From NCBI GenBank assembly GCA_963920765.1, contig OY987244.1, positions 25,648,358 to 25,712,357 of the forward strand: a stretch of 64,000 nucleotides of DNA, given 5' to 3'. A program made the translations under genes and the position numbers. Shown here one piece after another: positions 66 through 56,315 of the stretch. Each line of letters starts with the position of its first letter. Positions within the stretch are counted from its first letter, which is position 1. The notes beneath the pieces are model-generated. The model worked only from the letters and a program-made list of their open reading frames with translations. It was not told the origin of the DNA and ran no database searches. The DNA comes from Ulota crispa. Its lineage: Eukaryota > Streptophyta > Bryopsida > Orthotrichales > Orthotrichaceae.

Positions 66-992
66 TTAACCCCTAAAGGACCATGGCCTTTATTTTGTCA
101 AATGACACTCAAAACTGCCACCTCTATGGCAAAGAGTAAAAAAGTTTGAAAATCGGTCTTTGCATATCTAACCATAGGATCCTGTACTAGATTACTATAA
201 AAATGTATCATACAAAACTCAAGAACTTTGACCATACAAGTTGGAAGATATTTGCAATTAAGAAATAAAAAACAACTTTTTTTGCACCTTGCATGACTAG
301 ATTATTTAACTATGAACTTTTTTAACTTAAAATTTTTGCACCACAGAGTTTGGAATTCTATTTTTGCATGATGGAAAGTTGAGTTGGTAATCTTGGGAAA
401 AACAAAAAATAAAAAATAAAAAATTTTCATTCTTATAAAAAACATTAGGCATAAGAAGGTACGAGATTGAACAAAAACTTAAATTGCTAATAACTTTACA
501 ATGGAATTGAAATGCAATGATCCCAATGGTGATATTGTTCTAGAAAGCAAACTTCACCCTTTCCAACAATTTCTTTTGAAAAAATGTTAAAATTGCTTAA
601 AAAAATGAGGTTTATAAGTTATTTTTTCAAGAAGATGCTTGAATTGCCTAAAAAACAAGATTGGCCATAACTTTCTCATAACTAGTCCAAAATGGAATGA
701 ATCAAAGCTTCAGATGTAAACAAAGATATAATCTATGAGAAAAAAAAATTAATTTTTTTTCAAATTTTTGTAAGAATTTTTTTTGCTGCCCAGAGTTCCC
801 AAATTTGTGCTTATTTGGGCATAACTTTTGCTCCCTAGCATCAATTGGAATAAAAATTAGATGCCCATGCAGATCTTTGAATTCCCATCTTCAATAAAAG
901 TTTCAAAAAATCATGCAAAGTAGTTTGGCCATAGGTACATGCCCAAAATCCCATTTGTCCGTTGAACAGACAGTTGGTCCTTTAAGGGTTAA
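66..992 (+). mobile_element. TTAA element A1 (piggyBac-like MITE, about 0.93 kb)
   Basis: The element is bounded by TTAA on both sides. The left end reads TTAACCCCTAAAGGACCA and the right end TGGTCCTTTAAGGGTTAA. Its interior matches A2, A3 and A4 almost throughout, from the TTTATTTTGTCAAATGACAC stretch at the left to the CCCAAAATCCCATTTGTCC stretch at the right. It has no coding capacity. The TTAA target and CCC ends fit the piggyBac superfamily; that class is inferred because no transposase is present. Confidence 0.85.
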
Positions 993-1314
993 GAGCATCT
1001 CCAGTGGTGACTCAAACACACATAGTGAATGAAAAGTGTTGCGGGCTCTTTCAAAACCCTCTCAAGATATAGTGTCCTTTTGTTTCTAGTCTGTGTCTAG
1101 CAAGGGCCTTTCAGGATACTATTCATCACTATTCATCCTACTTTTGGTGAACTTTGTTCTCTACTTCCCTTGATAAGTGGCCAATTGGTTATTTATAAGA
1201 TGTGTTGAAGTGTAAAGCCACCTTATGGAAGAGCATGGGTGAAGATCAAGGAGCTTGATGTCCTTCCAAAATAGATGAAAACCTTTGAATGTGCCCAAAT
1301 TGGTGGAGATGCTG
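993..1314 (+). mobile_element. Tourist-like MITE Q1
   Basis: It begins GAGCATCTCCAGTGG and ends GGTGGAGATGCTG, flanked on both sides by TAA, the 3-bp duplication typical of PIF/Harbinger elements. Its interior (TGAAAAGTGTT, CCCTCTCAA, GATAAGTGGCCAATTG) matches Q2 and Q3. It starts directly on the terminal TTAA of A1. Confidence 0.75.
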
Positions 1315-1341
1315 TAAGCCCATATGTTATGGCTCAATTCA

Positions 1342-1608
1342 TTGCACATACATCAAGGTGGGGCCAGGGTAGAAAAGCATTGTTTTTTCACTTGCCATGA
1401 AATGTAAGGGTTTGGATATTTACCATTGAAAGATTGAATTTGGAAACTTTGGATTCATATTTGGATTTAAATACCATGTTTAAGTCTGTGACCCTGGAAG
1501 AGGATACAATGGAACAACAACAAAATAAGGGGCAAATTATTACTAATACCCTTGTTTGGAAAAACATCTAAGCTCTTTTGCCTTGGCCCCACATCAATGT
1601 ATGTGCAG
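1342..1608. mobile_element. Palindromic MITE M2
   Basis: The ends are inverted copies: TTGCACATACATCAAGGTGG at the left and the complement of CCACATCAATGTATGTGCA at the right. The interior shares the GGATTTA...ACCATG...TTT stretch with M1, M3 and M4. No transposase is present and the family is unknown. Confidence 0.6.
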
Positions 1609-1684
1609 TAAAGTGAGCCAAGTGTTATTGGATGTGGGTTACAATTACATGTTGGTTTTTGTTCATTGACAAATTGCATGTGAC

Positions 1685-2354: not shown

Positions 2355-2403
<49 letters not shown>

Positions 2404-3718: not shown

Positions 3719-4667
3719 TTAATTCCTAAAGGACCAAGGGGTTTTTTTGAAGAAACATTGTTAAAAATTGCGTTTTTTTTGGTATGTTGATCAAAAATGA
3801 AAACTAAAACGTTTTATTGTAACTTCAACTGCATGAAACTATAATAAAATACTAATCTAATGTGTGGTAAAAATTTCAGCCCATTTGACAGCGCGGAGTG
3901 TAAGATTATAATGTTTAAAGTGAGAAAAACAATTTTTTTTTCATTCCTATAAAACAAAGTCAGCATACTTTGAGCCCTTTTGGAGTGAATTTTTTGCTCT
4001 ACACAAAAATGAGCTTTTTGACCATTCACAAGTATATGATGTTAGGATCACTCATGAAAAATTTCAGAAGCAAATATAGAATCTAGCTTTCTATAAATTC
4101 CCGTGTAGTGCAAGGAGGTTTAGTGAATTGGCCATACACTAGTCATTTTTTCATGATTTCTTGTGCAATGAGAAATTTTTATTTGGAATCTGAACTACAA
4201 AAGGTAGGGACAAACATTTGAAATGTGTGGAATTTTTTTCAAGAACTTAGAACTTATAATTGGAAGATAATAGGGCCTAAAGTTAGAAGAAAATATTTTT
4301 TCTTGAAATTGCATAGACAATTAATAAAGTTTGACTCCTCTTAGAATGTGATTTGAGAGCTAACTTTTTTTACAATTGTATGCCATATTTTATTAGTTAC
4401 ATGCATGCCAAATTTCAAAAATTGATGAGATTTCTAACATAAGATTCTCCAAAGATGCCCAAATTGCTTGAGCTGCCTAATTCATTTTGGGTAGCATAGC
4501 TTTTCAATCAAGCATTTGATGGGGAAGAAATCAAATTTCCACTTGGGGAATACCTCTTTACACCTTGTGTAACAATTATGAGAACATCCAATAAAACCTG
4601 ACTTTGTATGACCCTACCCAAATTTTCAAGTGTTTGTTGAATGGAAACTTGGTCCTTTAAGGACTAA
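3719..4667 (+). mobile_element. TTAA element B1
   Basis: The left end is TTAATTCCTAAAGGACCAAG and the right end CTTGGTCCTTTAAGGACTAA, slightly decayed. The interior matches B2 and B3 in reverse orientation, including GAGCTTTTTGACCATTCACA and the CTAAACCTCC/TTGCAATGCAAGG region. It is non-coding, about 0.95 kb. Confidence 0.8.
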
Positions 4668-8544: not shown

Positions 8545-9197
8545 TTAACCCTTAAATGCCCAAGGCACCCAATTTGGGTGTTTGCAAAATTTTGAAGACA
8601 AATAAAATCTTATCAAATCACTATTTTTGGTATTTTCTTTTGAACATTAGTTTGTTTTGAAGTCTATTTTTAACATCAAAAATCTGATTTTGAAAATGAT
8701 TGTCCATGATTTTTCTATTCAATATTTTGTACAACGGTGTCCACTGCAATCTTGAGTTTTTTAGCGTTGGAAGATTTTGAAAATGAGCCTCAAATACACT
8801 AGAGCTTGGAGAAAAATTTGCATTAGAAATCCATTTAAAAAAAATACAAGAGTAGATTTTGAAAGCCGTAAATTAGTTGAGGTTAAACATGCAATGACCT
8901 AAAACCTCGTATTTTTTTGATGACCAAATTTTTAGATTTGACATGTGAAATGAGGATTAGAAAACTTGAAGTCACTTCTGCAATTTTAACACTCTCATGT
9001 TCAAACATTATAATCTTTCAAACTATAAGTGATATTGTTGTGTTTTCCTTTTCCATGTAATCTCTAACATGTCAAGTTTAAATTTATACAATTACAATTT
9101 AAAAGAACTTGATGAGATTTATGAAAAGGTTGGTTGATTGTTCACTTTCCTGAAAATGCCAAGAAGTTCAAAAAGCCCTTGGGCATTTAGGGGTTAA
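8545..9197 (+). mobile_element. TTAA element C1 (653 bp)
   Basis: The left end is TTAACCCTTAAATGCCCAAG and the right end CCTTGGGCATTTAGGGGTTAA, written here as inverted ends of about 20 bp. C2 shares the end sequence. No coding region is present. Confidence 0.8.
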
Positions 9198-9702: not shown

Positions 9703-11519
9703 TTAACCCCTAAATGTCCAAGGCACCAGATTTTGGTGTCTAAAAAATATCAGGAAATTTTGAAACCCTGTTGTAGGCACAGATTTTGTTGTTTTGAGGT
9801 TTTTTTTTGGAAAAATTGCAAGCTAAAGATAGTTTTAGTGTTCAAATTCAACTTTCTTCATATCTTATTTCATTTGTTTTTGGTGGAAGATTAACTACAA
9901 GCATACATTTTTCTGTCATGAATAATGTTGTGAATAGTGTTGTGAATAGTGTCACAGAGCTTATGAGAAGTTGTCACATTGAAAAGACGGGCATCAAGTT
10001 GAGCAAAAGGTGAAGATTTCCCTTGGGCACTCCTTTGGACAATAAGGGCCTTTTTACTGAAATTTTGACATTTAACAAAATCTACAAGTGCTTTTGGACT
10101 AATTTCACTTGGAATGTCTTTGTTATCAAAATTAGAATCTATTCACCATTGAAAATTCTTTTATTCATAATGATTTTTGGTCAATAATTGAAGTTGAAAT
10201 TTCTTTATATTGAATGGTTGCATTTTTATAATTGCAATGCATGCTCATTTGTGAAATTGTGGTCATGGATTTGAAAGAGGGGCCATTGATTTTGAAGTAA
10301 CAACAATAAACACTAAAGCATCCTAAGTGGTTGTTTCCCAAATTTGTATCCAAAAGTTGCCAATTTGCATTAGAAGTTTCGAACAGCTCCAAAAATCACA
10401 AATATCTTAACCCCTAAAGGACTGAGCCATTTTTTCAGTGAAAATCACTCAAAATTGCCACTTTTGGGGGGTCAATAAGAAGGTTTTTTTTTTTTTTAAT
10501 TTGGGAAATCTAACCGTAAGATCTTGCCCTAGACTGGATTAGGTCCTTGTGGAAAACAAATCAGGTCATTCCAAAAGGACATGAGTGAGATATTTACATT
10601 TAAAGTGAAAAGAAAAGTTTTTTTCCATGCTACCCCAAAATTTCAGAAGCCTTTGACCACTCTTATAACAAAAAAGTTGCTCTACGCAACTTTGCACTTT
10701 ATTTTTCCCATGTAGGAGATCAAGTTAGCTATGTGTCGGAGATTTTTCAAATCAATTGGAACTATACAGCACATGGGAAAAAATAGTAAGTAAAAAGATG
10801 TAAAGAATGAGTCAAAACACTAAATTGTTCAAAATATAATTATGGAAATGAACAATGCAAATCCCAATGGTGATAATGTTGTGATAAAAAATCTACTTCC
10901 TTGGGTTTAATTATCTTTCCAAAATATTGAAAATTGAGTAAAATATAGGACTTCAAAGTTTATTTTAGAGTAGAGAATCCATAATTGCCCGCAAACAAAA
11001 ACTCCTCATAAATTTCATCTCATTGATTGAAATGGAATGATTCAAAGCTTCTCACCTCTTAAAAAATATAAAGAACCGATTTCAAATTTTAATTAAAAAA
11101 TATATAACTTTTAAAGAAGTTTTTGGGCTGCCCAGGCAGGCAGTCCTCCCCAAATTTTCAGAAATTCTTGCATAACTTTTTCAATAATTGTCGGAATGAG
11201 GAAAAAATAAGATGCCCACTTAGATCTTTGAATTCCACATCTTCAATAAAAGTTTCAAAAAATTACTTAAAGTAGCTTATCCAAAGGTACATGCTCAAAC
11301 TCCCACCTGTCCCCCAAAGGGACAATGGTCCTTTAGGGGTTAAAATTGGTGCAACCATTTTGGATTCTTTTTAGGTAATGCCATTTAGACACCTTGAAGT
11401 TCAAGATTCAACAGTTACAATTTTGTTTTGATGTTTAATAATGATCTTAAACACCATTCAAAAACTTCAAATCTACCTTTTGAAAACGAGAAAAACACCC
11501 TTGGACATTTAGGGGTTAA
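9703..11519 (+). mobile_element. TTAA element C2, split by D1
   Basis: The left end is TTAACCCCTAAATGTCCAAG and the right end CTTGGACATTTAGGGGTTAA. Its two halves are 9703-10406 and 11344-11519, with the complete D1 element sitting in an internal TTAA. This places D1 later than C2. Confidence 0.8.
10407..11343 (+). mobile_element. TTAA element D1 nested in C2
   Basis: The left end is TTAACCCCTAAAGGACTGAG and the right end GACAATGGTCCTTTAGGGGTTAA, given here only as its 20-bp core. The interior matches D2-D5. Near the right end CCTGTCCCCCAAAGGGACAA forms a small subterminal hairpin. It has no transposase. Confidence 0.85.
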
Positions 11520-11803: not shown

Positions 11804-12732
11804 GTAACCGTAAAGCACCATTGTCGCTTGGGGGACACGTTGGACTTTGGGCATGTATCTATGGCTAAATTTTGTGTGATTTTCTGAAACTTTTATTGAA
11901 TGTGGGGAATTCAATATCTATGTGGGCATTTATTTTTTTCTTCATTCCGACGTTCGATGAAGAAGTTATGCATGAGTTTATGAAAATGTGGGGAGGGCTG
12001 CCCGTCTGAGCAGCCCAAAAACTTTTTAAAAATTATATATTTTTTAAACAAACATTGGAAATTGGTTCTTTAGATATTTTATACATGGGAAGCTTTGAAT
12101 CATTCCATTTCAATCAATGAGATGAAAGTTATGAGGAGTCTTTGTTTGTGGGCAATTATGAATTCTCTACTTTAAAAAATACTTCGAAGTCCTTTATTTT
12201 ACTTGATTTTCAATATTTTGGAAAAAAAAATTAAACCAAAGGAAGTAGATTTTTTATCACAATAGTATAACCATTGGGATTTGCATTTATCATTTCAATA
12301 ATTAAATTCTTAACAATTTAGTGTTTTGACTCATTCTCTACTTCTTTTTACTTACTATTTTTTTCCCATGTGTTGTATAGTTCCAATTGATTTGAAAATT
12401 CTCCCACACGTACCTAATTTGATCTACATGGAAAAATAAAGGGCAATTTTGGGTAGAGCAATTTTTTTGTTACAAGAGTGGTCAAAGACTTTTGAAATTT
12501 TTGGGCAGCATGGAAAAAACTTCCTTTTTTCACTTTAGATGTAAATATCTCCCTACTTTCCAACTAGAATGAGCTGATTTTTTCCCCACAAGTACCTCTT
12601 CTAGTCTAGAGCAAGATCCTACAATTAGATTTCCCAAAAACAAAACCTAAATTTCCTTTTTACTAAACCTCTTTGAAGTGGCAGTTTTTAGTGATTTTCA
12701 TAAAATAAAGGGCTTGGTCCTTTAGGGGCTAA
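11804..12732 (-). mobile_element. TTAA element D2, inverted relative to D1
   Basis: The left end is decayed (GTAACCGTAAAGCACCATTG) and the right end reads GGTCCTTTAGGGGCTAA. The interior is a reverse-complement match to D1 over most of its length, so D1 and D2 form an inverted pair about 460 bases apart. Confidence 0.8.
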
Positions 12733-15104: not shown

Positions 15105-15986
15105 TTAACCCCTAAAGCCCAGTGTCCCTATGAGGGAGAAAAGGGATCTTGGGCATGCTTTTCTATTAATTGTTTATCAAATTACTTGAATTTTATTCTT
15201 GAGATAGAGTTTTGCAAGGGCTACATGAGAGTACAATTTTATTCAAATTGGATTCATGATTCAAAATATATGGATGTTCTATGTGTTTTTTTTGTTCAAG
15301 GTGCAAGCTGAGCATGTCAAATTTTGTTAACTTCTCTCAAGGGCCACCAATGAAGGCTTGACCTTTCACTAGAATATTCCAAAAGCTATTAGATAAATTC
15401 ATTTTTGCATTTGACAAAAATAGTAACGTTTAAATTGCAGTAGTTATTAGGGGTTTGATTTTTCAAAAAAAAAAAGGAGGTTGTCAATAAAGTTAAACTC
15501 TTTCAATCTATTGTTTGGGTCTTTTAATTTTCAAATTATCCCTCATAAATTTAGTTTGCAAAGAATCCTAGTGTTATGAAAATTTCAAACACATGCTTGC
15601 AATGCAAGGCCATGTAGGGTGTGTTCTATGTCTTCAATGACCTTGAAAATTGGTGGAAATATGCCTAACAAACTAGAGCATATTAGTCAACTATCTACAA
15701 CACCCCTATTGCAAAAATATTTATCACATGCAGTCAAAGGGACTTGAAATTTTTGGGTAAAAGTCAAAAAAAAATTTTTACACCAACTTCAAATGCTCAT
15801 ACCTCTCAATCCATACAATCAAACCTCATGAAATTTTTCATTATGCCTACTTGCATAAGTCATATGCAAGACCCTTTGGTTAAACTTGTAGAATTTTGAA
15901 AAAAAATAATCTTAGGGTCAAAACACTGAAAATGGTAATTTTCAAGATCTTTCCAGAAAAATTGGGCTTGGACTTTTAGGGGTTAA
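15105..15986 (+). mobile_element. TTAA element E1
   Basis: The left end is TTAACCCCTAAAGCCCAGTG and the right end TTGGACTTTTAGGGGTTAA. At 0.88 kb it is the only clear E copy in the window. An internal stretch about CATGAAATTT resembles K elements. The frame at 15093-15311 crosses the element end and is not a gene. Confidence 0.75.
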
Positions 15987-19316: not shown

Positions 19317-20295
19317 TTGACCCCTAAAGGACCAAGTGGCTATTCAACAACCACTTGAGAACTCGGGTAGGGTCATATGAAGTTAATTTTTATTGGATGT
19401 TCTCAAAATTGTTACACAAGGTACAAATATGTATCCCATAAGTGCAGATGTAATTTTTTCCCCAATCAAATGCCCGGTTCAAAAGTTATGTTACCTGAAA
19501 GCATTTGGATAGCTCGGGTAGCTTGGGCATTTTTGGAGAATATTATGCTAAAACTCTCATCAACTTTTGAGATTTCATAAGTATGTAACTAAAAAAACAT
19601 AATGTACAATTGTCAAAAACAAACAAAAAAACAAAAAAAAACAAAAAAAAACTCTCACATCACATTTAGAAGGGAGTCAAACTTTGTTAATTACGTTTGG
19701 GTAGTTTCAAGAAAAAAAAACTCCTCTAACTTCAAGCTCTATTATCTTTCAATCTATAAATCCAAAACTCTTGAAACATTTTTCACATATTCCAAATGAT
19801 TGTCTCTAAATTTCACCATTCAGATTTCAAATTAAAAACTTCCTCATTGCACTAGAAATCATGAAAGAATGACTAATGTATAGCCAATTCACTAAATCTC
19901 CTTGCATTGCAAGGTGATTTAGAATAAGCAAGATTCTATATTTGCATTTGAAAATTTTCATGAGTGAACCCAACATCATATACTTGTGAATGGTCAAAAA
20001 GCTCAAATTTATGTAGAGCAAAAATTTTACTCTAGGAAGGCTCAAAGTCTGCTGACCTTGTTTTGCAAGAATGAAAAAAAGCTATTTTCTCACTTCAAAC
20101 ATTACAATCTTACAATCCACGCTGTCAAATGGGCTGATTTTTTTTTGCACACATTAACTTATCTGTTTGACACACTTTTTGTACAGTTGGAATTGAGAAA
20201 AAAGGTTTTTATTTTCAATTTTGGGCAATGCATTAAAAGTTGGCAGTTTCTGAGTTTTTTTCTCAAAAAGCACCCTTGGTCCTTTTGGGGGATAA
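19317..20295 (-). mobile_element. TTAA element B2
   Basis: The left end is TTGACCCCTAAAGGACCAAG and the right end CCTTGGTCCTTTTGGGGGATAA, read here as its first 20 bases. The interior is the reverse complement of B1. It contains several short open frames that are A/T-run artefacts. Confidence 0.8.
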
Positions 20296-21551: not shown

Positions 21552-21785
21552 TTAACCCTTAAATGACTGAAAGGCCCTTTGCAATTAGTACAATATAGGG
21601 TAGTTTTTTTGTATTTGGAATGGATCCACACCTCTACTACATTTGAGACCAACAAAGAAGTTGGAGAATAGATTAATGCGGTTCTAGTGAGTTACTTGAG
21701 ATCTCAAATTAAAATTTCTTATTAGTAGCAAATGAAAATTACACATCCGCATATATACTATGTTCTATGGTCATTTAAGGGTTAA
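21552..21785 (+). mobile_element. TTAA element F1 (234 bp)
   Basis: The left end is TTAACCCTTAAATGACTGAA and the right end TATGGTCATTTAAGGGTTAA. Each end contains a second TTAA just inside the first. The interior matches F2 and F3 (TGGATCCACACCTCTACTA, GTTCTAGTGAGTTACTTGAG). It is the intact reference for the split F3. Confidence 0.8.
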
Positions 21786-21806: not shown

Positions 21807-22762
21807 TTAACTCCTAAATCACAAAAGTTCATTCAACAGTTAGTTGAAAGTTTGGGTAAGTTCCCCTATGAAGTCAATTTTTGGTGGATGTTTCTAAAAT
21901 TTGGAGACAAAGGTGCACATAATGAATACCTTTGTATAAAATCTAAAAAAAAAACTTTGATTGGATGCTTGAGTAAAAAGTTATGTTACCTAAAAGAATT
22001 TGGGCACCTTGGGCCAATTTGGCATCTGGAGAATCTTATGCCAAAACTCTCACTAACTTCTAAAACTTGGCATGTATGTAACTAATAAAATATGGTATAC
22101 AATTGTCAAAAAAAAGTTGAGCTCATAAATCACAATCTAAAAGGAGTCAAACTTTGTTAACTATGTCCGGGTATTTTCAAGAAAAAATATTTTCTTCTAA
22201 CTTCAAGCCCTATTGTCTTGCATTCCATAAATTTGAAGTTCTTGAAACTTTTTTTAAATATTCAAAATGTTTGCCTCTAAATTTTCACCATTTGTATTAC
22301 AAATGTAAGACTTCCTCATTGCACAAGAAACCATGAAAGAATGACTAATGTATTGTCAATTCACTAAATCTCCTTGCAATGTAGGGTGATGTAGACTAAG
22401 CTAGATTCTATATTTGCTTCTAAAAATTTTCATGAGTGAACCTAACATCAAATACTTGTGAATGGTCAAAAATCTTGTTTAGAGCAAAAAAATCCCTTTA
22501 GGAGGGCTCAAAGTTTGCTGACCTTGTTTTGCAAGAGTGAAAAATAATTGTTTCTTGCACTTCAAACATTATAACCTTACAATCTACGTGGTCAAATGGG
22601 CTAATTTTTTTTCCAAACATTGCCTTACTTATGTGTTACACTTTTGTACGGTTGAATTTTTATTATTTCAAAGTTTTTATTTTGAACTTTAAATATGTCA
22701 TTAAAAAATGGCAGTTTTGGTCTTGTTTTTCTTTGCAACACCCTTTGGGCTTTAGGGGTTAA
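21807..22762 (-). mobile_element. TTAA element B3
   Basis: The left end is TTAACTCCTAAATCACAAAA and the right end CACCCTTTGGGCTTTAGGGG then TTAA. It is a reverse-complement match to B1 and parallel to B2, for example in AAACCATGAAAGAATGACTA. Confidence 0.8.
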
Positions 22763-22791: not shown

Positions 22792-23029
22792 TTAACCCTT
22801 AAGCGCCCCAGCAACAGGATCTTGTCGTTGGGGCCCACAACTTTATCTCACTTTTTCTCTTAATTTGTACGGTGAAAATAGTCATGGTTGGTCCCCATCA
22901 ACAGAGAAGGTAGTCCTTTTTCAAATCTTGTGGTCACTTTTTTTGGATATAATTTTCCAAGCTGTGGTGGCCATTAAACCCCTTGTTTTCTCCTATATCC
23001 TAAAATAACTATGGGCGCTCAGGGGTTAA
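22792..23029. mobile_element. TTAA element H1 (238 bp)
   Basis: The left end is TTAACCCTTAAGCGCCCCAG and the right end ATGGGCGCTCAGGGGTTAA. The central part is GC-richer than its flanks. No second full copy is seen. Confidence 0.65.
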
Positions 23030-23417: not shown

Positions 23418-23508
23418 TTAACCCTTAAGCACCAGGGTCACCGTGGGTATATGGGATCCCGTGTATTTGCGGGGACAAAAATTGTCCCCTTCAGTGTTTA
23501 AGGGTTAA
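23418..23508. mobile_element. Miniature TTAA element (91 bp)
   Basis: The left end is TTAACCCTTAAGCACCAGGG and the right end CAGTGTTTAAGGGTTAA. It includes GGGGACAAAAATTGTCCCC, a perfect hairpin with a short loop. Confidence 0.65.
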
Positions 23509-31008: not shown

Positions 31009-32244
31009 AGTGAGTGGGGTCATGAATGCACCCAGCTGCATCAGGGGTGGCAAAGAAAGAGGCTCATCATGATTTTCATTGTTGCCAGTTATCATGATTA
31101 GTAACTTAACTCACGATGGTAACTTAAGCTGAGTAGTCTGGGCCTCTGGGGGTTGTACTCACTACGCCTATTCAATTTTAAATCCTAATTTTATTGGGTT
31201 CTAGAGGGCAAACGACAAAATATGTTTCTTGATATTTTATGCATGTTTTTTTGGAGACTTAGTTCTCAAACTAATTTTTGAAAGTTAGATCCAATTCTAT
31301 CACTGAAGTTCCATTTTGTTGGTGCCAAAACTTCCAAAAAAGTGTGGCAATGTTAGCATTTTTCTTAAAGAACCTAAGCTCAAGATTTGATATGTGATGT
31401 GTAGAGACAATTCAAATATTTCAAGTCATAAGTCCCAAGTTGTAGGGCCCATTAAATTCTCAAAAATTGGATTGATAAAGAGGTTTCAAAATTAAGAACT
31501 ACTATTGTCACAATGTAATCAAACCTCTCAATTTCTAATCCACTTAGAAATGTCATTCATGAAAGCGCTTTTTGAAAGAGCCATGCCAAGTAAACAAAAC
31601 TTCACTCATCTCCACTCTCTGTGACATTATCACATAAGGTAGGCACACTCATAAGTGTGGAAATAAGGGTTTTGGAGTAGGTAAAACAATTGACTAACTT
31701 TGAAAAAAATACTGTAAGTTAGGAAATGGAAACCAAATATATTGGCATCAATTTCAAGGTTCCAACTGCAAGCATTTGTTCACAAAGATTTTTCAATGTC
31801 CAAAATCACTAAAATTGTAGGAACCATGCATAAGAGATGCTCAAAACAAGGCTTGTTGGTTCTTAAATACTGAGAAGGGTACTCAAAATAGTCATGCCAT
31901 TCACCCGCAACCATCACTTTGCCACCCATAACTATCACTTAAGTACCCATAACCATTTGCTTTTCCATTTATCACTCCTTGACTTTGTTAGTGACACCCA
32001 TGGGGACATGGCGCCTAGATACAGTTTGAAGACTCATTGAATTTTTTGTTTTTTATTCTATCTAACTTTTGAAAATCTTAATAAAATTCTAATGGTGAAT
32101 GCATAGTGTAACAAGCGCCAACAGCTAGTATATCCCCTAAGAATTAAAAAAAACAAAACATGAAGCTGAATTGAGAATTTGTAAAGCTAGGATGTGGGTC
32201 ATGGTGCCAATAGCCCCCTTAACCAAAGTATGAAGCCCCTTTAA
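31009..32244. other. Unassigned stretch
   Basis: A lone AGGTAGGCACACTCATAAG at 31638 resembles a G/N-type end without a partner. No gene is recognised. Confidence 0.45.
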
Positions 32245-40372: not shown

Positions 40373-40704
40373 TTAACCCCTTAACGCTCAAGGGGAATTT
40401 TTTTAAGTTAATTTTCATTTAATTTTTTTCAGAAGTGATCATAAACACATGGTTCAGCATGGAAGGCAAAAAAAATATCACCAAACGTACTCATATTTTT
40501 AGGTAACCTAAATTGTGAGAAGATTCACATCCACTGCCCTTATTGCAATTTTCATGAGGGCGTCATAACTGTCATGTACTATTGACTTCTGAAACTTTTG
40601 GAAACAATATTATAATTGGTGGGCACTTACCACACCATTCTAAAGAACTCTAGAGGTATTGTAAAGAAGCAATGAGGGTGACTAGCCAAACATTTAGGGG
40701 TTAA
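40373..40704. mobile_element. TTAA element (332 bp), single copy in window
   Basis: The left end is TTAACCCCTTAACGCTCAAG and the right end CCAAACATTTAGGGGTTAA. The ends agree only in the outer part. It carries another TTAA just inside the left terminus, as F1 does. Confidence 0.55.
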
Positions 40705-40855: not shown

Positions 40856-41082
40856 TTAACCCCTAAAGGATGTTGCCTACCAAAAGTGTTGTATGTATTT
40901 GTAGAAGAACCGTTTAGTATTTGAAAAAAAACTTTACAACAAATGTCAAAAATTCCCCAAAAAATCCTAGTTGACCAGTATTATGTTTCTGACTTGGCTT
41001 GAAATTTACAACTCCAAAGGGATTCATGTGCTATCCAAATACCCTATCCGTATACAAAACAGCAACATCCTTTAGGGGTTAA
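40856..41082 (+). mobile_element. TTAA element I1 (227 bp)
   Basis: The left end is TTAACCCCTAAAGGATGTTG and the right end CAACATCCTTTAGGGGTTAA, a perfect inverted repeat of 20 bp. It matches I2 in reverse orientation. Confidence 0.85.
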
Positions 41083-42546: not shown

Positions 42547-43742
42547 TTAACCCCTAAAGGATGTTGATATATTGTACATGGTCTCTTGTGTTGTATATGG
42601 AAGGGGTACTTGGACAGCGCATGAATCCCATTGAAACTGTACATTTTAACCCCTAAAGGATCATGGCCTTTATTTTGTCAAAAGACACTCAAAACTGCCA
42701 CCTCTAAGGCAAAGAGTAAAAAAGTTTGAAAATCAGGCATTTTGCATATCTAGCCGTAGGATCTTGTGCTAGACTATCATAAGAATGTGTCATACAAAAC
42801 TCAAGAACTTTGACCAAACAGATTGGAAGATATTTGCATTTATAGTGTAAAAAAGAACTTTTTTTGCACCTTGCTTGACTAGATTATTTAACTTTGAACA
42901 TTTTTAACTTAAAATATTTGCACCATAGAGTTTGGAATTCTATTTTTGCATGGTGGGAATTTGAGTTGGGAATCTTGGGAAAAATTTCAAAAAAAAAAAC
43001 TTAATTTTCATTCTTTAAAAAAACATTAGGTAGAGGAAGGTATGAGATTGAACAAAATCTTAAGTTGCTAATAACCTTGCAATGGAATTGAAACGCAATA
43101 ATTCCAATGGCGGTATTGTTCTAGAAAGCAAACTTCACACTCTCCAACAATTCTTTTTGAAAAAATGTTAAGTCTGCATTCAAAAGTGAAGTTTATAAGT
43201 TATTTTTTCAAAAAGATGCTTGAGTTGCCCAAAAAACAAGATTGTCCATAACTTTCTCATAACTAGTCCAAATGGAATGAATCAAAGCTCCAGAAGTAGA
43301 TGAAGATATAATCTATGAGAAAAACAAATTAAATTTTTTTTTTCAAATTTTTATAAGAATTTTTTTTGCTGCCCCTAATCCCCAAATTTGTGCTTATTTG
43401 GGCATAACTTTTGCTCCCTAGCATCAATTGGAATAAAAGTTATATTCCCCAAAAGCTAATGTATTTTTCTATTTTCAAAAAAAGTTTCAAAAAATTAAGA
43501 CAAAAATTGAGGCCGTAGGTACCTGCCCGAAATCCCATTTGTCCCCTGAAGGGACAATGGTCCTTTAGGGGTTAAGCCCATTGAAACTATAAATTTTAAG
43601 CCAATCACAAACATGCTAGCAATAACTTAAGACTTTTTGAAATTTTTTTGGCAAATGTCATAAAGCCATGTTTTCTAATACTAAACGGTACTTATATGAA
43701 TACAGCCAACATTTTTGGTAGGCAATATCCTTTAGGGGTTTT
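42547..43742 (-). mobile_element. TTAA element I2, split by A3
   Basis: The left end is TTAACCCCTAAAGGATGTTG. The right end is GGCAATATCCTTTAGGGG followed by TTTT, a decayed TTAA. It matches I1 in reverse, with the complete A3 inserted inside. The sequence next to A3 is present on both sides (see Part 2). Confidence 0.75.
42646..43575 (+). mobile_element. TTAA element A3 nested in I2
   Basis: TTAACCCCTAAAGGATCATG to GACAATGGTCCTTTAGGGG plus TTAA. It is a close match to A1, and its well-kept ends suggest it is one of the younger A copies. Confidence 0.85.
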
Positions 43743-44114: not shown

Positions 44115-44846
44115 AGGTAGGAGCACCCATAAACGTCAAACTAAGGGTTTTGAACATGATGACTATTAATAAACAGCTAGCCAATTGTAGGATCCTACTA
44201 GGAATAGAAAAAAAAAGTTTACACTTTTGAATGTATTATTTGGATACTGTGAGAATAAGTTGTGAATTTTTAAGAGAATTGATATGTGCACACGGAGGGT
44301 TGATATTTGCACACCCCCCTGCTAGTTAAATTATAGATTTCAACTACCAAAAAGTTAAATTTGAGAAATTGGAATTCAGATTTGGACTTAGAGACCATGA
44401 TTTAATCTAGAACCGCAAAAAAAGTTGCAATTCATCAACACCCAATGAAAAAACTTATATTTTTTTACAAACAAATGTAAAAGTAACACTTTTCTCCTTA
44501 GCTAAACTTTTTAGGTGAGTGTTGTTTAATTGCAACTTTTTTTTATGGTTCTAGACTAAATCATGGTCTCTTTGTCCAAATCTGAATTCAAATTCCTCAA
44601 ATTCAGCTTTTTGGTAGTTGAAATCTATAATTTACCTCCCAGGGGGTGTGCAAATATCAACCTCGGTGTGCACATATCAATTCCCATTTTTAAAAAGCAA
44701 ACTGCCATTGCACCCATAACCACTTTTAAGATTTCATGTTCACATGTTATACATCCTTGTCATTACATTTATCCACTTCCACAGATTTTCCAAGACTTTA
44801 AAGGTGACGGTTATGAAGACAATGACGCTTATGAGTGCTCCTACCT
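44115..44846 (-). mobile_element. TA-flanked MITE G2c, split by M1
   Basis: It starts AGGTAGGAGCACCCATAAAC and ends GCTTATGAGTGCTCCTACCT with TA outside. The two halves match G2a/G2b in reverse, joined at GTGAATTTTTAA on the left and AAAAAGCAAACTGCC on the right of the insert. Confidence 0.8.
44274..44688. mobile_element. Palindromic MITE M1 nested in G2c
   Basis: AATTGATATGTGCACACGGA at the left is mirrored by GGTGTGCACATATCAATT at the right. The arms remain complementary inward (GGACTTAGAGACCATGATTT against AATCATGGTCTCTTTGTCC), leaving a loop near 44470-44510. Confidence 0.75.
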
Positions 44847-46049: not shown

Positions 46050-46307
46050 TTAACCCCTAAACGTCTGAGCGTGCCGCTCCAATCAGTACAATATGGGGTA
46101 TTTTTCTTGTATTTGGAATGGATCAACACCTCTACTATAGTTGGGATCAACACCTCTACTATAGTTGAGATCAACAAAGAAGTTGGAGAATAAATCAATG
46201 CGGTTCTAGTGAGCTACTTGAGATCCCAAATTAAAATTTCTTATTGGTAATAAATGACAATTACACGTTAGCGTATATACTATGCCCTATGGACTTTTAA
46301 GGGTTAA
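46050..46307 (+). mobile_element. TTAA element F2 (258 bp)
   Basis: The left end is TTAACCCCTAAACGTCTGAG and the right end GGACTTTTAAGGGTTAA. A 24-bp internal block (GATCAACACCTCTACTATAG and four bases) is doubled at 46119-46166, which accounts for its extra length over F1. Confidence 0.8.
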
Positions 46308-47455: not shown

Positions 47456-47532
47456 TTAACCCCTCAACTCTTACAGGGCTGAATTCAGCTCATTTTTAGT
47501 GTAATTTGAAATTCTTTGACATTGAGGATTAA
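47456..47532. mobile_element. Miniature TTAA element (77 bp)
   Basis: The left end is TTAACCCCTCAACTCTTACA and the right end TTTGACATTGAGGATTAA. It shares its right TTAA with the next element. Confidence 0.5.
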
Positions 47533-48103
47533 CCCCTAAGCGTCCCTGCGGATGTTTTCTGGACGTTGGTCAATTCGAATCCTCCTTTAAATCTCATTTA
47601 ATGCATGGATGGAAGTTACTATAATTTCTAGAGATATTGTATGAAGTTGTGGTCATATCCAAGGATTGGGTCTGGTGTTACTTAAGTACATATTTTTCTA
47701 AAATCACAAGTGTGGGCATATATCAAGCTGAAAATTGCATTGATTTTAGTTCAAAAGTGGCCTTGCAAAAATGAGGTTATAGATTTAAAGAACCAAAAGA
47801 TTTCAAAAAATCACCATGTCAAAAAAATCTCATTTCAAATCCATTCTAACAACTTTTACTCAAAAAATGTTAATATTGTGCTTGTAATTGAATTTAGAAA
47901 GACTTTGATTTTTTTACTTTCAAAATTTATACTAAAATGTTAATGACAACATTAGTGAATCTAACCATAGAGATGGAATCTAAAATTCAAAATCTACAAT
48001 TTTCATTTATGCTTCAATTGCAAAATATTCTTCCTAATAATAATTTATGACAAATTCTCACAAGCTGTTAGATATGGAGACCTCCTGGACACTTGGAGGT
48101 TAA
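47529..48103. mobile_element. TTAA element (575 bp), single copy in window
   Basis: The left end is TTAACCCCTAAGCGTCCCTG and the right end CTGGACACTTGGAGGTTAA. The ends are imperfectly complementary. The frame at 47710-47943 is A/T-biased and not a gene. Confidence 0.55.
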
Positions 48104-48473
48104 GAAGAGAAAGTAAGGGGGATGCTAATTACAAAACCACATTTGACAAGATGAATACTTATTGATGATTAGTTTTGAGAAGCCATAACACACACTGAAA
48201 ATTCTGTAATCTAAAACATATAATTAAAATTTTGTAATCTGATTTTTCTCCTATACATATACAGGGACTCCCAAAATTGTCTCAATGTTTGCTTAGATGT
48301 CAAGTTTTTTTCAATATCTCCACTATATTTCAGTGGCATATTATCCTCAGATTTCTTGTATGTGATCCTCGTGCAATCATGATCAAGCATACCAAATTTT
48401 AGTTACTAAAAACTAAAATTCTAATTTTGGTAAATTGTTTTGTGTCAAAATCAAGAAAGTTGATTAACCCATG

Positions 48474-48704
48474 AAGGGCCCTTGGGCTCTAGAGCTACGA
48501 TACCAAATACAGTTGCAACCAATATTCAAAAGTTTGAATCAGTTGGAAATTAAGTGTTACAACCATACATATTGAAGGGTTGTATGCTAATGGCCATTGG
48601 TGGGTGCATAATTGTTTTTGAAAAGTCCTCATAGTAGCTCAAATACGTCTATACATACGATCATACATACGGCCGCAAAGGGCGTTTGGGCCCTCCGGGG
48701 TTAC
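48474..48704. mobile_element. TTAA element nested in the left arm of J2 (231 bp)
   Basis: The left end is TTAACCCATGAAGGGCCCTT and the right end TTGGGCCCTCCGGGGTTAC. It is GC-richer than J2. The opposite J2 arm (about 50010-50025) shows the same site without it. Confidence 0.7.
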
Positions 48705-48982
48705 AAAACATTGGTGATGAATTTTTGAGACTTGATTGCATAGGTATGTTGGAGATATCCATACGCACATCTTTGCTTCAAACAAATATTTCCAAAAAAA
48801 TCTAAAAGCATTCTAATTTGAGACCAATTTTAGTAAAATTAATAATTCTTCATGGAATCTATTTTTGGCAAAGTAAACATATCATTGTGTTTAGAGGTAC
48901 AAACTTAATCACAATTTTTGTTTATTTTGCCAAAAAATAGATTCCATGAAGAATGATCAATTTTACTTAATTTGGTACAAAT

Positions 48983-49888
48983 TCAATCCCTAAAAGACTA
49001 GACCTTCTTTTTTAGAAACATAGCAATTTTGGGCAGGTACCTATGGTTGGAGCTTTTCATATTTTAGGCTAAAATTTTAATTGAATGTGGGGACAAGGTT
49101 TGTCTTTCATACGCACTAAATTTCATGACATTTGGAGTTATGAGTAAACAGTTATGGCCTAATATGTTGTTTTTTATGTTCATTGGGTAGCCTGGGCAGA
49201 TTTTTAAAAATCACTTTTTTCAAAATTTGTTTAGGAGATTTATGTGAATGTAGGAAGCTTTGAATCATTTTGTTTTGATCAACAAGATGAAAGTTATGAG
49301 AATTTTTAGTTTGCGGGTAGTTATGGATTCACTACTCTAAAATAAACTCTAAAGTTTTTTATTTTACTCAATTTTCATTATTTTGAAAAAAAAAAAAACC
49401 AAAGGATGTAGATTGCTTATTACAACATTGCAACCATTGGGATTGCAAATTTTCATTTACATAATTAAATTCTTAACAGTTTTGTGTCTTGATCATTCTC
49501 TACTTCTTTTTACTTACTAATTTTTTTTCCATATGTTATACAATTCCAAATGATTTGAAACTTTTTTGGCATGTACTTTACTTAAGTGGAGAAAGAAATT
49601 TAGAGAAGCACCACCCACATGGTTTTTTTCCTCAGGAATTTCACCTTCCCAAGAGTAGCTGCCCAGTTTTTCACATGACGTTATTGAATATTCAAACCAT
49701 TCTAACGTCCAATCCACACGACAAAAAACTCTGAAGTTTTTTCCACATCTTCTAAAACTATTCTTCTACAAGATCCTACAGTCACATATGCATAAAAATG
49801 TTTTTGTTTTCAAATTTAGTTGATGCTCTAAAAATAGCAGTTTTGGAGAGTTTTTGGTGAAAGCTTTACTTGGACCTTTAGGGGTTAA
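48983..49888 (+). mobile_element. TTAA element K1 nested in the right arm of J2
   Basis: The left end TTCAATCCCTAAAAGACTAG is decayed and the right end is TTGGACCTTTAGGGGTTAA. It matches K2 throughout, including TTTTTTAGAAACATAGCAAT and CAGTTTTTCACA. Confidence 0.8.
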
Positions 49889-51124: not shown

Positions 51125-51490
51125 TAGTAAAAATGTGATTTAGGTATTTACCATAAACAAGTTGAATTTGGAAAAAATTGAATTTAGATTAGGATTTGTA
51201 AACCTTGCTTTAGTTCAGAACCACAAAGGAGATTACAATTGAACAACACCAAGTGAAAAAACTTAGTTTTTTTTACAAACAAGGGTAAAAGTAATAATTT
51301 GCTCCTTAGCTATCTACGCTTTTCCATAAGGTGTTGTTCAATTGTAACCTCCTTTGTGATTCATGACTAAACCAAGGTCTCTAAATCCAAATTTGAATTC
51401 AAACTTTCCAAATTCAACTTGTTAATGGTAAATGTCTAAAATTTACCCCACTATGTACATATAACAAACCCCCGGTGTGCCTATATCAAT
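51125..51490. mobile_element. Palindromic MITE M4
   Basis: ACAAGTTGAATTTGG near 51162 is mirrored by CCAAATTCAACTTGT near 51408. CCACAAAGGAGATTACAATT is mirrored by AATTGTAACCTCCTTTGTG. It shares M1's right-hand ATATCAATTCCC end. The outer left border is unclear. Confidence 0.6.
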
Positions 51491-52001
51491 TCCCTATTTA
51501 TATCTCCTTCCATGGCATTACACTAAGTGAGGGTCACTAGATACATCAAAATTTTGTCTTTATGAAGGTCAAACTCAAAAATCTAATGTTTTGTGCCAGA
51601 CGAAAAAACTTATATTTTTCCACCCTGGACCCACAAATACGTGTGTACAGTAGATCAAGACGTGACTTGATTCCAAAGACCACTGTTTCTACTAAGATAG
51701 TGTGAAGAAGTTGAGCTTTTTACGTGAGGGTTCACAACCTGGTGTGTTCAGAATACCTAGCCCACCCACACACGCATACACAGAGGGGCGTTGATAGAAA
51801 TACTCATCGGCAGATAAACAAAAGAAACCTGCACAAAATCAAAGAACCTTGCACCGAATCAAAGCAGCCTGCACGGAAACAAAGAGAAGGAAACTCAAAC
51901 CACAGATCTGCAGACGAAGTAGAATTCCAGCATTAGCAGCTGCAACAGTAAAACATCACGGTCAGTATTCATTCACATATGTGGTTACACTTAGCAAAAC
52001 T
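51491..52001. other. Unassigned stretch with three 20-bp repeats
   Basis: CCTGCACAAAATCAAAG, CTTGCACCGAATCAAAG and CCTGCACGGAAACAAAG follow one another at about 51828-51886. The surrounding segment is less AT-rich than its neighbours. It could be part of an untranslated transcript, but there is no evidence of one. Confidence 0.4.
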
Positions 52002-52008
52002 TTAACCC

Positions 52009-52936
52009 TTAACCCCTAAAGGACCATTGTCCCTTTGGGGATAAATGGGATTTTGGGCAGGTACCTACGGCCTCAATTTTTGTCTTAATTTTTTGAAACT
52101 TTTTTTGAAAATAGAAAAACACATTAGTTTTTGGGGAATATCATTTTTATTCCAATTGATGCTAGGGAGCAAAAGTTATGCCCAAATAAGCACAAATTTG
52201 GGGACTAGGGGCAGCAAAAAAAATTCTTATAAAAACTTGAAAAAAAATTTTAATTTTCTTTTCTTATAAATTATATCTTTGTCTACATCTGAAGCTTTGA
52301 TTCATTCCATTTGGACTAGTTATGAGAAAGTTATGGACAATCTTGTTTTTCAGGCAACTCAAGCATCTTCTTGAAAAAATAACTTGTAAACTTCATTTTT
52401 GAATGCAGTTCTAACATTTTTTCAAAAAAAACTATTGGAGAGGGTGAAGTTTGCTTTCTAGAACAATACCGCCATTGGAATTATTGCATTTCAATTCCAG
52501 TTTAGGGTTGTTAACAATTTAAGTTTTTGTTCAATCTCATACCTTCTTCTACCTAATGTTTTTTTAAAGAATGAAAATTAAGTTTTTTTTTTTGAAATTT
52601 TTCCCAAGATTCCCAACTCAAATTCCCACCATGCAAAAATGGAATTCCAAACTCTATAGTGCAAAAATTTTAAGTTAAAAATGTTCAAAAATAAAAAATC
52701 TAGTCAAGCAAGGTGCAAAAAAAGTTCTTTTTTACACTATAAATGCACATATCTTCCAATTTGTGTGGTTAAAGTTATTGAGTTTTGTACGACACATTCT
52801 TATAGTAGTCTAGTACAAGATCCTTTGGTCAGATATGCAAAATGCCTGATTTTCAAACTTTTTTACTCTTTGCCATAGAGGTGGCAGTTTTGAGTGTCTT
52901 TTGACAGAATAAAGGCCATGGTCCTTTAGGGGTTAA
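52009..52936 (-). mobile_element. TTAA element A4 in the left end of F3
   Basis: TTAACCCCTAAAGGACCATT to CCATGGTCCTTTAGGGG plus TTAA, 928 bp. It is a near-complete reverse match to A3. Both ends are well preserved. Confidence 0.85.
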
Positions 52937-53131
52937 ACGATCGAAAGGTCCTTTGCTACCAATACAATAGAGGATATTTTGCTTGTATTTGGAATGGATC
53001 CACACCTCTACTACATTTGAGATCAACAAAGAAGTTGGAGAATAGATCAATGCGATTTTGGTGAGCTACCTAAGATCCCAAATTAAAATTTCTTATTGGT
53101 AACAAATGACAAATATACTTCAATGTATATA

Positions 53132-53443
53132 AGGTAAGAACACCCATAAGCGTCAGTGTCCCCATAACCGTCACCTCTGAAATCTTGGAAAATTTGTGGA
53201 AGTGAATAGATGTAATGACAAGGATGTACAACTTATGAAAATGAAAGCTTAAATGTGGTTATGGGTGCAATGCAGTTTGCTCTTTAAAAATTCACAACTT
53301 ATTCTCATAGTATCCAAATAATACATTCGAAAGTGCAAACTCATTTTTTTCTATTCCTAATTGGATTCTATAATTTGCTAGTTGTTTATTAATAGTCATC
53401 ATGTTCAAAACCCTTAGTTTGACATTTATGGGTGCTCTTACCT
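53132..53443 (+). mobile_element. TA-flanked MITE G2b in F3
   Basis: It begins AGGTAAGAACACCCATAAGC and ends TATGGGTGCTCTTACCT. It is flanked by TA on both sides, whereas F2 has GTATATACTATGCC with a single TA at this spot. This fixes a 2-bp TA duplication for family G. Confidence 0.85.
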
Positions 53444-53462
53444 TACTATGCCCTATGGTTGT

Positions 53463-55101
53463 TTAACCCCTAAAGGACCAAACCCTCTTTTTTAGAAACA
53501 TAGCAATTTTGGGCAAGTACATGTGGTTGGAGCTTTTCATATTTTAAGCTGAAATTTTAACAGAATGTGGGGACAAGGTTTATCTTTCATATGCACTAAA
53601 TTTCATGACATTTGGAGTTATGAGTAAAAAGTTATGGCCTAATATGTTGTTTTTTACATTCATTGGGCAGCCCGGGCAAATTTTTAAAAATCACTTTTTT
53701 CAAAAACAACTTTTTAAAATTGGTTGAGGAGATTTATGTGAATGTAAGAAGCTTTGAAATGTTCCATTTTGAACAGCAAGATGAAAGTTATGAGGATTTT
53801 TAGTTTGTGGGCAACTATGGATTCACTACTCTAAAAGAAACTTTGAAGTCCTTTATTTTACTCAGTTTTCATTATTTTGGAAAAAAAAACAAAACCAAAG
53901 GATGTAGATTGTTTATTACAACATTGCAACCATTGGGATTGGAAATTTTCATTTCCATAATTAAATTCTTAACAATTTTGTGTTTTGATCATTCTCTACT
54001 TCGTTTTACTTACTATGTTTTTTCCATATGTTAACCCCTAAAGGACCAAAGTCCCCTTGGGGGACTTTTGGGATTTTGGGCATGTACTTATGGCTAAACA
54101 ACTTTGTGTGATTTTTTGAAACTGTTATGGATGATGGGGAATTCAAAAATATGTGTGGGCATCTACTTTTTTCCTCATTCCGACATTTATTGAAGAAGTT
54201 AAAAATGAATTTATGAGAATTTTAGTTGAGTGGGTAGCCCAAAAACTTCTTTAAAATTTGCGTTTTTTAAAAATAAAAATTTGAGGTTAGTTCTTTAGAC
54301 ACACGTATATGTGGGAAGCTTTGAATCATTCAATTCTAATTGATGAGATGAAAGTTATGAGAAGTTTTAGTTTGTGGGTAGGTGTGGAGAATCTCAAAAC
54401 AATGCTTACATGCAAACTAAAATTTCTCATAACTTTCATCTCATCAATTAGAATTGAATGATTCAAAGCTTCCCACATATACGTGTGTCTAAAGAACTAA
54501 CCTCAAAATTTTTATTTTAAAAAAAATGCAATTTTTAAAAAAGTTTTTGGGCTGTCCACTGAACTAAAATAAACTCATTTTTAACTTCAATAAATGTTGG
54601 AATGAGGAAAAAATTAGATGCCCTCACAGATCTTTGAATTCCCCATCTCCCGTAAAATTTTCAAAAAATCACGCAAAGTAGTTTAGCCATAGGTATGTGC
54701 CCAAAATCCCATTTGTCCCCGAAAAGGGGGCCTGGTCTTTTAGGAGTTAAACAAATCCAAATGATTTGAAACTTTTTTGACATGTACTTTACTTAGATGG
54801 AATAAGGAATTTACAGAAGTACCGCCGACATGTCCTTTTTTCCTTAGGAATTTCACCTTTTAAAGGGTAGCTGCCCAGTTTTTCACAAGATGTTTTTTGA
54901 ATATTCAAACCATTCTATCTTCCAATCCACGCGATGAAAGACTCTAAATGTTTTTGATATCTTTTGAAAACAATTCTTCTACAAGATCCTACGGTCACAT
55001 ATGCATAAAAATGTTTTTGTTTTCAAATTTGGTTGATGCTCTAAAAATGGCAGTTTTAAAGAGTTTTTGGTGGAAACGTTGCTTGGACCTTTAGGGGTTA
55101 A
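53463..55101 (+). mobile_element. TTAA element K2 in the right end of F3, split by L
   Basis: The left end is TTAACCCCTAAAGGACCAAA and the right end TTGGACCTTTAGGGGTTAA. It matches K1 on both sides of L. Without L it would be about 0.92 kb. Confidence 0.8.
54031..54750. mobile_element. Hairpin TTAA element L nested in K2
   Basis: TTAACCCCTAAAGGACCAAA to CTGGTCTTTTAGGAGTTAA. Both halves are copies of the same D-like half in opposite orientation. GATGAGATGAAAGTTATGAG near 54342 is mirrored by CTCATAACTTTCATCTCATC near 54426, and the centre is near 54393. The arms are about 340 bp and stay complementary over most of their length. Confidence 0.85.
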
Positions 55102-56315
55102 AAGGTTAAACCTCACCCCTTCTTTTGAATCCAAAATTGTGAATTTGATAGCCCAGGACGCGAAGTTTCACCACGTTCGTTACTGATAATAGTATTTAAT
55201 ATTTTGGCCCACGAGAACTAATTCTGATAAAAAACAAGAGATGGGATCAGTGACTGACCACAGTGCATGATGGGGCGGCACACTCACTGAGAACCTCAAT
55301 CAATGCCATTCGTGGCAGCCTTGCTCGTCTGCCCAATGCCCACCACCCCACCCCCTCCCCCCCTGCTAATGAAAAGACGGTAGTTGCAAATGTTGATTGG
55401 CCGCCAACGCACGCCTCAACCTAGCTCTGCCAGACCGGGTCTAGACCGGGCACAGGGTGCGGTGTGACTCCTGGCCCGGCCCATCCTCGTTGCCCTCCTT
55501 CCCTCCTCCTTCCTCTCACAGTCCCAGCCACCACCACCTATTCCCCCCAGGGGGTTCCTATCACAAACTCCTTGCTTTTTCGCCAGATTCTTCAGTGATG
55601 AGCGGAAAATCATAGCCTAGCATCAGAGGAATCAGCGCTCAAACTGTTTTTGTGTATGTTCTTCTTCTTCTTGCTCTGACCAGTCAATGCCTGCAATTAC
55701 TGAACCCCACTCCCTCTGGCAGGCCTACTAGCTAAGCTTAACTTAGTCCTCTCCCCTCCCTCCCCACTCCACCCCTCCCACTTATTCGTTTTCAATTCTT
55801 CATGCTTCTGTGCGCCACTGTATGGTGGCAGCGTCTCCGGGGGCAGTGGGCCGGATCTTGCGAAGATCTTCTGAATTGCGGATCAAAGCGGGCAGCTTGG
55901 GTGCAAGAGCGGCCGGAGGACGACGTTGACCGGGCCCCATTTGATCTGGTCGTCTGCTTCTTTTCTTTTCAGGTTGCTTCGATCAGGTTTGTAGGAAGAG
56001 TGAGATGGTGTGGAGAGCTCAGTGGAGGAGGCATTTCTGTGAGGAGAGGGGCCCGCCGGTGTGTGTGAGAGAATTGTAGCACACTCTAGCAGGCTCTTAC
56101 TCGACGACGACGGCGAAGATAGAAGAAGAAGAAGAAGTCGCAGCTTAGGTTAACCACCACTGACGCGTACTTGTGCGTACTTGCGTCGGTGAGAGCTTCA
56201 ATCGCCTTTTCCTTGAACCCTCCACTCCGCTGTCACCTCTTGTTCGTTACACGCTTTTTGTAGTTTTTCTCGAGTTTTTACGAAACGGGTGTCACTATCT
56301 TGACTCCTGACCCAA

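Follow-up and report, generated by a model that had tools for sequence, protein, structure and literature searches.

The question raised by a 64-kb stretch of the Ulota crispa genome (C3:25648358-25712357; 35% GC from base counts), called here the window and meaning the whole stretch analysed, is which transposon superfamily supplied the many short elements in this moss that are bounded by TTAA and begin with CCC. The piggyBac superfamily, to which an earlier sequence-only reading had assigned them, is known mostly from animals, where it is used as a tool, and is seldom recorded in land plants. Our analysis leaves little doubt that the window contains about 24 non-coding, cut-and-paste elements of that superfamily, resembling miniature inverted-repeat transposable elements (MITEs). 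The genome also contains longer piggyBac elements that code, or once coded, for DDD transposases carrying a putative C-terminal cysteine motif. Observed directly were the ends, a four-base duplication, transposases in the same genome, agreement between end class and transposase lineage, and subterminal sequence shared between coding and non-coding copies. The assembly used comprises 274,817,297 bases in 157 contigs; the genome paper on cbUloCris4.1 gives a total of 275.00 Mb in 408 scaffolds (PMC11803377), and the words 'transposable' and 'repeat' are absent from its main text.

Conserved ends in the window

The heptamer TTAACCC occurs 45 times on the two strands of the window, against means of 11.9 and 8.6 in first-order and second-order Markov sequences (30 of each). 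The longer motif TTAACCC[CT]TAAA occurs 32 times against 0.1 expected, confirming that the TTAA-bounded ends are real, and TTAA directly precedes 32 of the 40 copies of CCC[CT]TAAA. Among 38 CCC[CT]TAAAGG ends from the window and 20 fetched loci, the four flanking bases were T (36), T (33), A (36) and A (35), and the fifth base outside showed no conservation. The flanking T and A are thus conserved as part of a four-position TTAA, as had been claimed.

Target site duplication

The same conserved T and A had been taken to support a TTAA over a TA target. TTAA holds, but through insertions at other sequences, because empty sites look alike under both targets and conserved outer bases are undecisive alone. 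Tc1/mariner (Stowaway-like) MITEs inserted at TA, running from ACCCC to GGGGT and with the outer T and A as a mere preference, predict the same sequences at TTAA sites, and ordinary copies, whether judged by flanks or by empty sites, are compatible with them. The empty paralogous site of the nested window element 10407-11343 is a single TTAA in loci L012 and L021, and that of 54031-54750 is a single TTAT in L052 and at 49455-49619 of the window, and a single TTGT in L051; since both targets yield the same sequence at TTAA sites, empty sites were dropped as proof of either.

Departures from TTAA were more informative on this point. Beside 8,154 exact copies of the end sequence TTAACCCCTAAAGGACC, one-base changes numbered 325 and 319 at sites 1 and 2, and 186 and 286 at sites 3 and 4. 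The outer T thus varies no more than the second one does, contrary to the prediction for a TA target. Pairs were sought on chromosomes 1 and 2 alone, both of them covered by the lists for all four sites; there, 346 ends lie one base off TTAA, and they form 20 pairs, spaced 0.2-3 kb, in which neither border is TTAA. Identical four-base repeats flank 11 of these 20 (TTAG 6, CTAA 3, TTAT 2), whereas 10,000 resamplings of the labels averaged 2.6 and never exceeded 10; an earlier count without site-3 ends had given 11 of 17. All of the 11 except C2:21424130 were fetched, and the four-base duplication was exact in 10 of 10: TTAG in L033, L034, L037, L040 and L042, CTAA in L035, L036 and L038, and TTAT in L039 and L041. 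At TTAG, a Tc1/mariner insertion predicts TTAACCCC...GGGGTTAG, whereas the TTAG loci read TTAGCCCC...GGGGTTAG, and the CTAA and TTAT copies are likewise duplicated over four bases. For TTAG, a TA target would have left TTAA on one side and TTAG on the other. L038 lies in a CTAA within the TTAACCCCTAAAGGACC end of another element and has CTAA on both sides. Among the unmatched pairs, L043 (C1:16651856-16652887) has TTAG at its left border and CTAA at its right; the two are inverted to each other and make no duplication.

A four-base target is therefore duplicated and a TA target is excluded, because non-TTAA insertions carry identical four-base repeats. The sequence-only reading had named duplication of TA alone as evidence against piggyBac; what the ten fetched insertions carry is an exact four-base duplication, and the assignment survives. 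Tc1/mariner, which is also at odds with the PF13843 transposase found inside matching ends (below), is very improbable as the source of these elements. PIF/Harbinger (Tourist-like) MITEs, with a three-base TTA or TAA target, are suggested by the presence of both trinucleotides within TTAA, and MITEs of about this short size are common in plants; however, the fourth base is duplicated too (TTAG/TTAG, TTAT/TTAT, CTAA/CTAA) and the elements are symmetric (CCCC...GGGG) inside TTAA, which makes this origin more improbable still. The piggyBac assignment also agrees with the kind of error made: in insects, rare non-TTAA sites are mainly CTAA/TTAG and ATAA/TTAT (Li et al. 2013, as told in PMC6651600), and all 11 matched pairs are of the CTAA/TTAG or TTAT kind.

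PiggyBac transposases in the same genome

PF13843 (DDE_Tnp_1_7) has at least 120 matches in the Ulota crispa genome at E <= 0.001 (best 1.3e-73), a lower bound from 116 scored candidates of 528 and one in which some copies yield two matches; no PF13843 match was found in 14 control genomes. Surrounding sequence was fetched for 20 matches (10 kb each) and for four more (6.8 kb each). In L011, a stop-free frame of 476 amino acids covers PF13843 positions 2-340 of 349 (E 8e-60) and matches the solved structures of piggyBac (6x67, 4e-20) and piggyBat (9c0f, 6e-17, over ~390 residues). Of the equivalents of the catalytic residues D268, D346 and D447 (piggyBac numbering as given in PMC7351741), the first two were aligned to 6x67, and an alignment was made to 9c0f also; L011 has N instead of the third D. 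The motifs TVDE, DN[FY]F and GV[DN]xxDQ (G[VI]DxxDQ) recur in many of 28 loci scanned, a set that includes four places fetched twice, and many copies have C-terminal CxxC...C..C motifs, which are pattern matches and in some cases perhaps due to chance.

The transposase-bearing elements are 5.2-5.7 kb long (L019, L020, L021, L032). Upstream of the transposase frame lie open frames of 354-453 amino acids (L011 2429-3490, L012 2717-4075, L027 2249-3340, L021 6002-7291), which gave no Pfam match and show little likeness to one another; they would be either N-terminal exons or separate genes.

Elements delineated in the window

Pairing ends on similarity, length and homology delineated 24 elements, together ~17 kb by sum of coordinates. 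TTAA stands at both borders of 18, two of them tentative, and the remaining six have at least one changed border; the earlier figure of about 28 elements with TTAA at both borders was right as to their presence and an over-count as to their number. They are listed by window coordinates, with no strand assigned.

66-992: non-coding piggyBac element of the CCCCTAAAGGACC family A, ~927 bp; TTAA at both borders; full-length relatives 42646-43575 and 52009-52936 at 86%
1685-2630: family A element; TTAA at the left border and, read from its end, TTAG at the right
3719-4667: element, relative of 19317-20294 and 21807-22762; left TTAA(TTCC), right TTAG
8545-9197: element whose ends, CCC[CT]TAAATGCC, are of the class seen in the L021 transposase lineage; TTAA at both borders
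9703-11519: element with CCCCTAAATGTCC ends, host of nested 10407-11343; TTAA at both borders
10407-11343: nested element with CCCCTAAAGG ends, both matching L032; TTAA at both borders; empty site in L012 and L021
11808-12732: element, both ends matching L032; left border decayed, right TTAG (read from its end)
15105-15986: element with CCCCTAAAGCCC/CCCCTAAAAGTCC ends; TTAA at both borders
19317-20294: element; decayed borders TTGA/TATC
21552-21785: 234-bp element, relative of 46050-46307 (78%); TTAA at both borders
21807-22762: element; TTAA at both borders
22792-23029: 238-bp element with ...AGCGCC ends like the L010/L017/L026 lineage; TTAA at both borders
23418-23508: tentative 91-bp element; TTAA at both borders
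24360-25298: element, left 530 bp and right 150 bp matching L032; TTAA at both borders
26569-27460: element, parts of both end regions matching L032; left TTAG, right TTAA
27662-28613: element, both end regions matching L032; left TTAA, right decayed (TTCA)
40373-40704: 332-bp element; TTAA at both borders
40856-41082: 227-bp element, terminal bases identical at 16/16; TTAA at both borders
42646-43575: family A element, 93% identical to 52009-52936; TTAA at both borders
46050-46307: 258-bp element; TTAA at both borders
47529-48103: tentative 575-bp element; TTAA at both borders
52009-52936: family A element; TTAA at both borders
53463-55101: element, relatives L051 and L052, host of nested 54031-54750; TTAA at both borders
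54031-54750: nested foldback element with two right-end-type termini, inside 53463-55101; TTAA at both borders

For several single ends in the window no partner was found (e.g. 5534, 18638, 18980, 42547, 47456, 48464, 49888). A candidate element at 48464-49888 was dropped: its end at 49888 resembles the right end of 53463-55101 and that at 48464 an end in L022.

The interiors of the elements differ, and some families have only 50-115 terminal bases in common, bearing out the claim that families differ inside and that several share only their ends. In alignments of at least 40 bases, the similarity of 24360-25298 to 52009-52936 is confined to 87 and 114 terminal bases, and that of 1685-2630 to 10407-11343 to 58 and 59 terminal bases and two internal stretches of 41 and 44 bases.

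Other features of the window include open frames at 57408-59748 that resemble an auxin response factor gene and a 220-amino-acid frame at 63198-63860 that resembles a retrotransposon gag, both judged by eye. Another repeat family has inverted copies at 44264-44692 and 51139-51503 and is also present in L010, L013, L021, L029 and L030, and a repeat at 31635-31972 is 87-89% identical to stretches in L011 and L032.

Linking the transposases to the ends

Pairs of matching ends around transposases were rejected as weak evidence, because at a threshold of at least 12 of 16 end bases alike many arbitrary placements also pass; enzyme and ends are linked instead by three observations: the points where homology between copies stops, the sequence shared in subterminal regions, and the match between end class and clade. 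The similarity of L016 to L019, at 89-93%, begins exactly at TTAACCC, takes in the transposase and ends at the opposite TTAA. In one transposase clade (L024, L025, L028-L032), a CCCCTAAA-type end lies 1.56-1.94 kb downstream of the domain in 7 of 7 loci, and homology between copies stops at that end, e.g. at L029 5985/L032 731 and L030 6055/L031 357. The transposase flanked by these ends that the sequence-only reading had proposed to look for is present in this clade: L032 732-5886 is a 5,155-bp element with TTAACCCCTAAAGGACC at both ends and a PF13843 transposase inside, its other end lying 2.4 kb upstream of the domain, and it has subterminal regions in common with window elements.

Both end regions of L032 are matched by five of the 24 window elements (10407-11343, 11808-12732, 24360-25298, 26569-27460 and 27662-28613); the matches extend over as much as 350-530 bp at the left end and ~150 bp at the right. 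Another four match L032 at the right end alone (66-992, 42646-43575, 52009-52936 and 54031-54750); the left ends of 66-992, 42646-43575 and 52009-52936 match other clade members (L029-L031) over 54-135 bases. Element 9703-11519 has its end regions and inner stretches in common with the transposase-bearing L021 1967-7712 and L012.

A tree without support values was built from 21 of the 24 long transposase loci, leaving out L013, L014 and L028, whose matches fall in two pieces or frames; where two ends lay within 1.2-2.6 kb, the nearer one defined the end class. End class follows clade, with CCCCTAAA(A/G)G in 6/6, CCCCTAAATGCC in 2/2 and CCCCTTGAGG in 2/2, and further classes are AATG (L018, L020) and AGCGCC (L010, L017, L026); three of the 21 loci (L009, L015, L022) had no end within 1.2-2.6 kb. 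By end class and tree together, the transposases fall into five or more diverged lineages, every one with ends of its own, rather than the one or a few related enzymes first supposed. At L014 (C1:1176400-1186300), a transposase lies between TTAACCCTTGCACG and TTAACCCTTGCATG ends 7.5 kb apart, perhaps another end class.

These links also bear on Kolobok, a superfamily that likewise duplicates TTAA and could have mobilised part of the pool, leaving only some of it to piggyBac. The small elements (227-332 bp) are untied to any transposase by subterminal sequence, and the transposase search covered PF13843, which leaves room for such a contribution. Against it, CCC[CT]T is a piggyBac kind of end, and for the CCCCTAAAGG and CCCCTAAATG families both end and subterminal sequence connect the elements to PF13843 copies. 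A share for Kolobok is improbable, if less so than either of the two origins considered above.

A palindrome near the ends

Ends of 43 elements (19 window elements, 20 other copies and the transposase-bearing L019, L020, L021 and L032) were searched for palindromes; the window elements starting at 23418, 47529, 3719, 11808 and 19317 were left out. A palindrome with arms of at least 6 lies within bp 11-46 of 32 of the 86 ends; the two 36-base segments that follow have 3 of 86 each. Of the 32 palindromes, 23 have their centre at bp 24-25. Against shuffled sequence, arms of at least 6 were found in 32/86 versus 25/430 and arms of at least 7 in 21/86 versus 6/430. Because the copies are related, the ends in all these counts are not independent. 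The palindromes of L019, L020 and L032 are in register, and that of L021 lies further in. Their sequences differ: GTCCC...GGGAC in L032 and the window, TGAGGACACATCGTGTCCTCA in L019, TGGGGACATAATGTGTCCCCA in L020, CAAGTGGTTGTTCAACAACCACTTG in L049 and CACCCAATTTGGGTG in 8545-9197. The palindrome of Trichoplusia ni (T. ni) piggyBac, at bp 17-33, is bound by the cysteine-rich domain of its transposase (PMC7351741), and by analogy we infer that the palindromes here are a putative binding site of the same transposase domain.

Copy number and age

The exact 17-mer TTAACCCCTAAAGGACC occurs 8,154 times genome-wide (4,072 + 4,082 on the two strands), compared to 0 and 0 for the reversed control, and with up to two mismatches it occurs 38,725 times, compared to 40 for the control. 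Among 24 compared copies, 22 have a full-length relative in that set at 79.5-93% identity, and two have none. The 'burst' proposed earlier is therefore apt as to copy number, which is very high, but its recency is unproven because the closest full-length pair among these copies is only 93% identical. Stop-free frames over the transposase domain are present in lineages other than that of L032, and those lineages may be active at present.

Weighing the assignment

Several results weigh against the piggyBac assignment or against its link to these transposases. Homology between copies that is exact along their whole length was seen in the L016/L019 pair only. The end-pair test is passed by 10 of 20 loci, but also by 32 of 108 arbitrary, overlapping placements in the window. 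Family A is the commonest of the full-length types there, and it shares only its right end with L032. The L032 transposase is broken by two TGA and five TAG codons, and the copies of its clade that were looked at included none that is intact; the partner demonstrated is a dead one, because that transposase carries stops. A search of the window with 13 query pieces from 10 loci (E 0.01) found no transposase remnant. Regarding the target, site 3 of TTAA changed less (186) than the other three sites, 9 of the 20 off-TTAA pairs are mismatched (one has its left end in common with a matched pair), and the unoccupied sites are all paralogous ones from the one genome assembly compared.

Proposed mechanism and significance

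In the mechanism that we propose, an Ulota piggyBac transposase would act on TTAACCCCTAAAGG ends, recognising its cognate CCC[CT]... termini, often with a palindrome ~24-25 bp in that its cysteine-rich domain would bind. Excision would proceed via TTAA hairpins, and insertion at TTAA would duplicate those four bases. Derivatives keeping ~50-500 bp of each end would be mobilised in trans, while their interiors diverge or are exchanged.

Taken further, these observations could describe a deep piggyBac radiation in a land plant, with at least five diverged lineages carrying their own terminal codes, several of which keep the palindrome at bp 24-25 while changing its sequence; zinc domain and palindrome would then have co-evolved repeatedly in one genome, and non-coding derivatives (for one end class alone, 38,725 ends at up to two mismatches) would be a leading source of MITEs in Ulota crispa and perhaps in other mosses. 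We consider the chances of this wider proposal to be evenly balanced. Having thousands of ends and at least 120 transposase matches, the genome offers a natural experiment on the joint evolution of ends, target choice and palindrome, and it keeps a record over evolutionary time of piggyBac target errors (CTAA/TTAG, TTAT). It also cautions that TTAA-flanked MITEs may be wrongly filed under Stowaway or Tourist when repeats are annotated in plants.

Comparison with known systems

A paper on coral MITEs (PMC2872659) is reportedly rich in the words piggyBac and TTAA and concerns non-coding elements in an animal host. That piggyBac is seldom annotated in land plants needs amending, as it is already listed there: a repeat table for the fern Ceratopteris gives 1,230 PiggyBac copies at 0.00% of the genome (PMC6890710), and a 2015 survey table has piggyBac among the superfamilies in all its groups, land plants included (PMC4438587). 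What those sources have in common with the present elements is the name, in table entries that describe no ends, transposases or MITEs. No description of piggyBac in a moss was found in the papers examined among the matches listed for piggyBac in plants or for Ulota crispa in the open-access literature; a match for Niphotrichum proved to be the word 'piggybacking'. As far as that literature was searched, a documented moss case with several piggyBac lineages and their cognate ends is new.

The elements themselves are members of the known piggyBac superfamily. Like T. ni piggyBac (6x67/6x68), they combine a DDD catalytic domain, TTAA duplication, ends starting with CCC and a putative C-terminal cysteine motif, along with rare CTAA/TTAG and ATAA/TTAT sites and, in many ends, a palindrome, which is centred at bp 24-25 here and lies at bp 17-33 there. 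Unlike it, they have a moss host, elements of 5.2-5.7 kb, family-specific palindrome sequences and upstream frames of 354-453 amino acids with no Pfam match. With piggyBat of Myotis lucifugus (9c0f), which was compared by its transposase alone and whose host is mammalian, they share transposase homology over ~390 residues of the 476-amino-acid frame.

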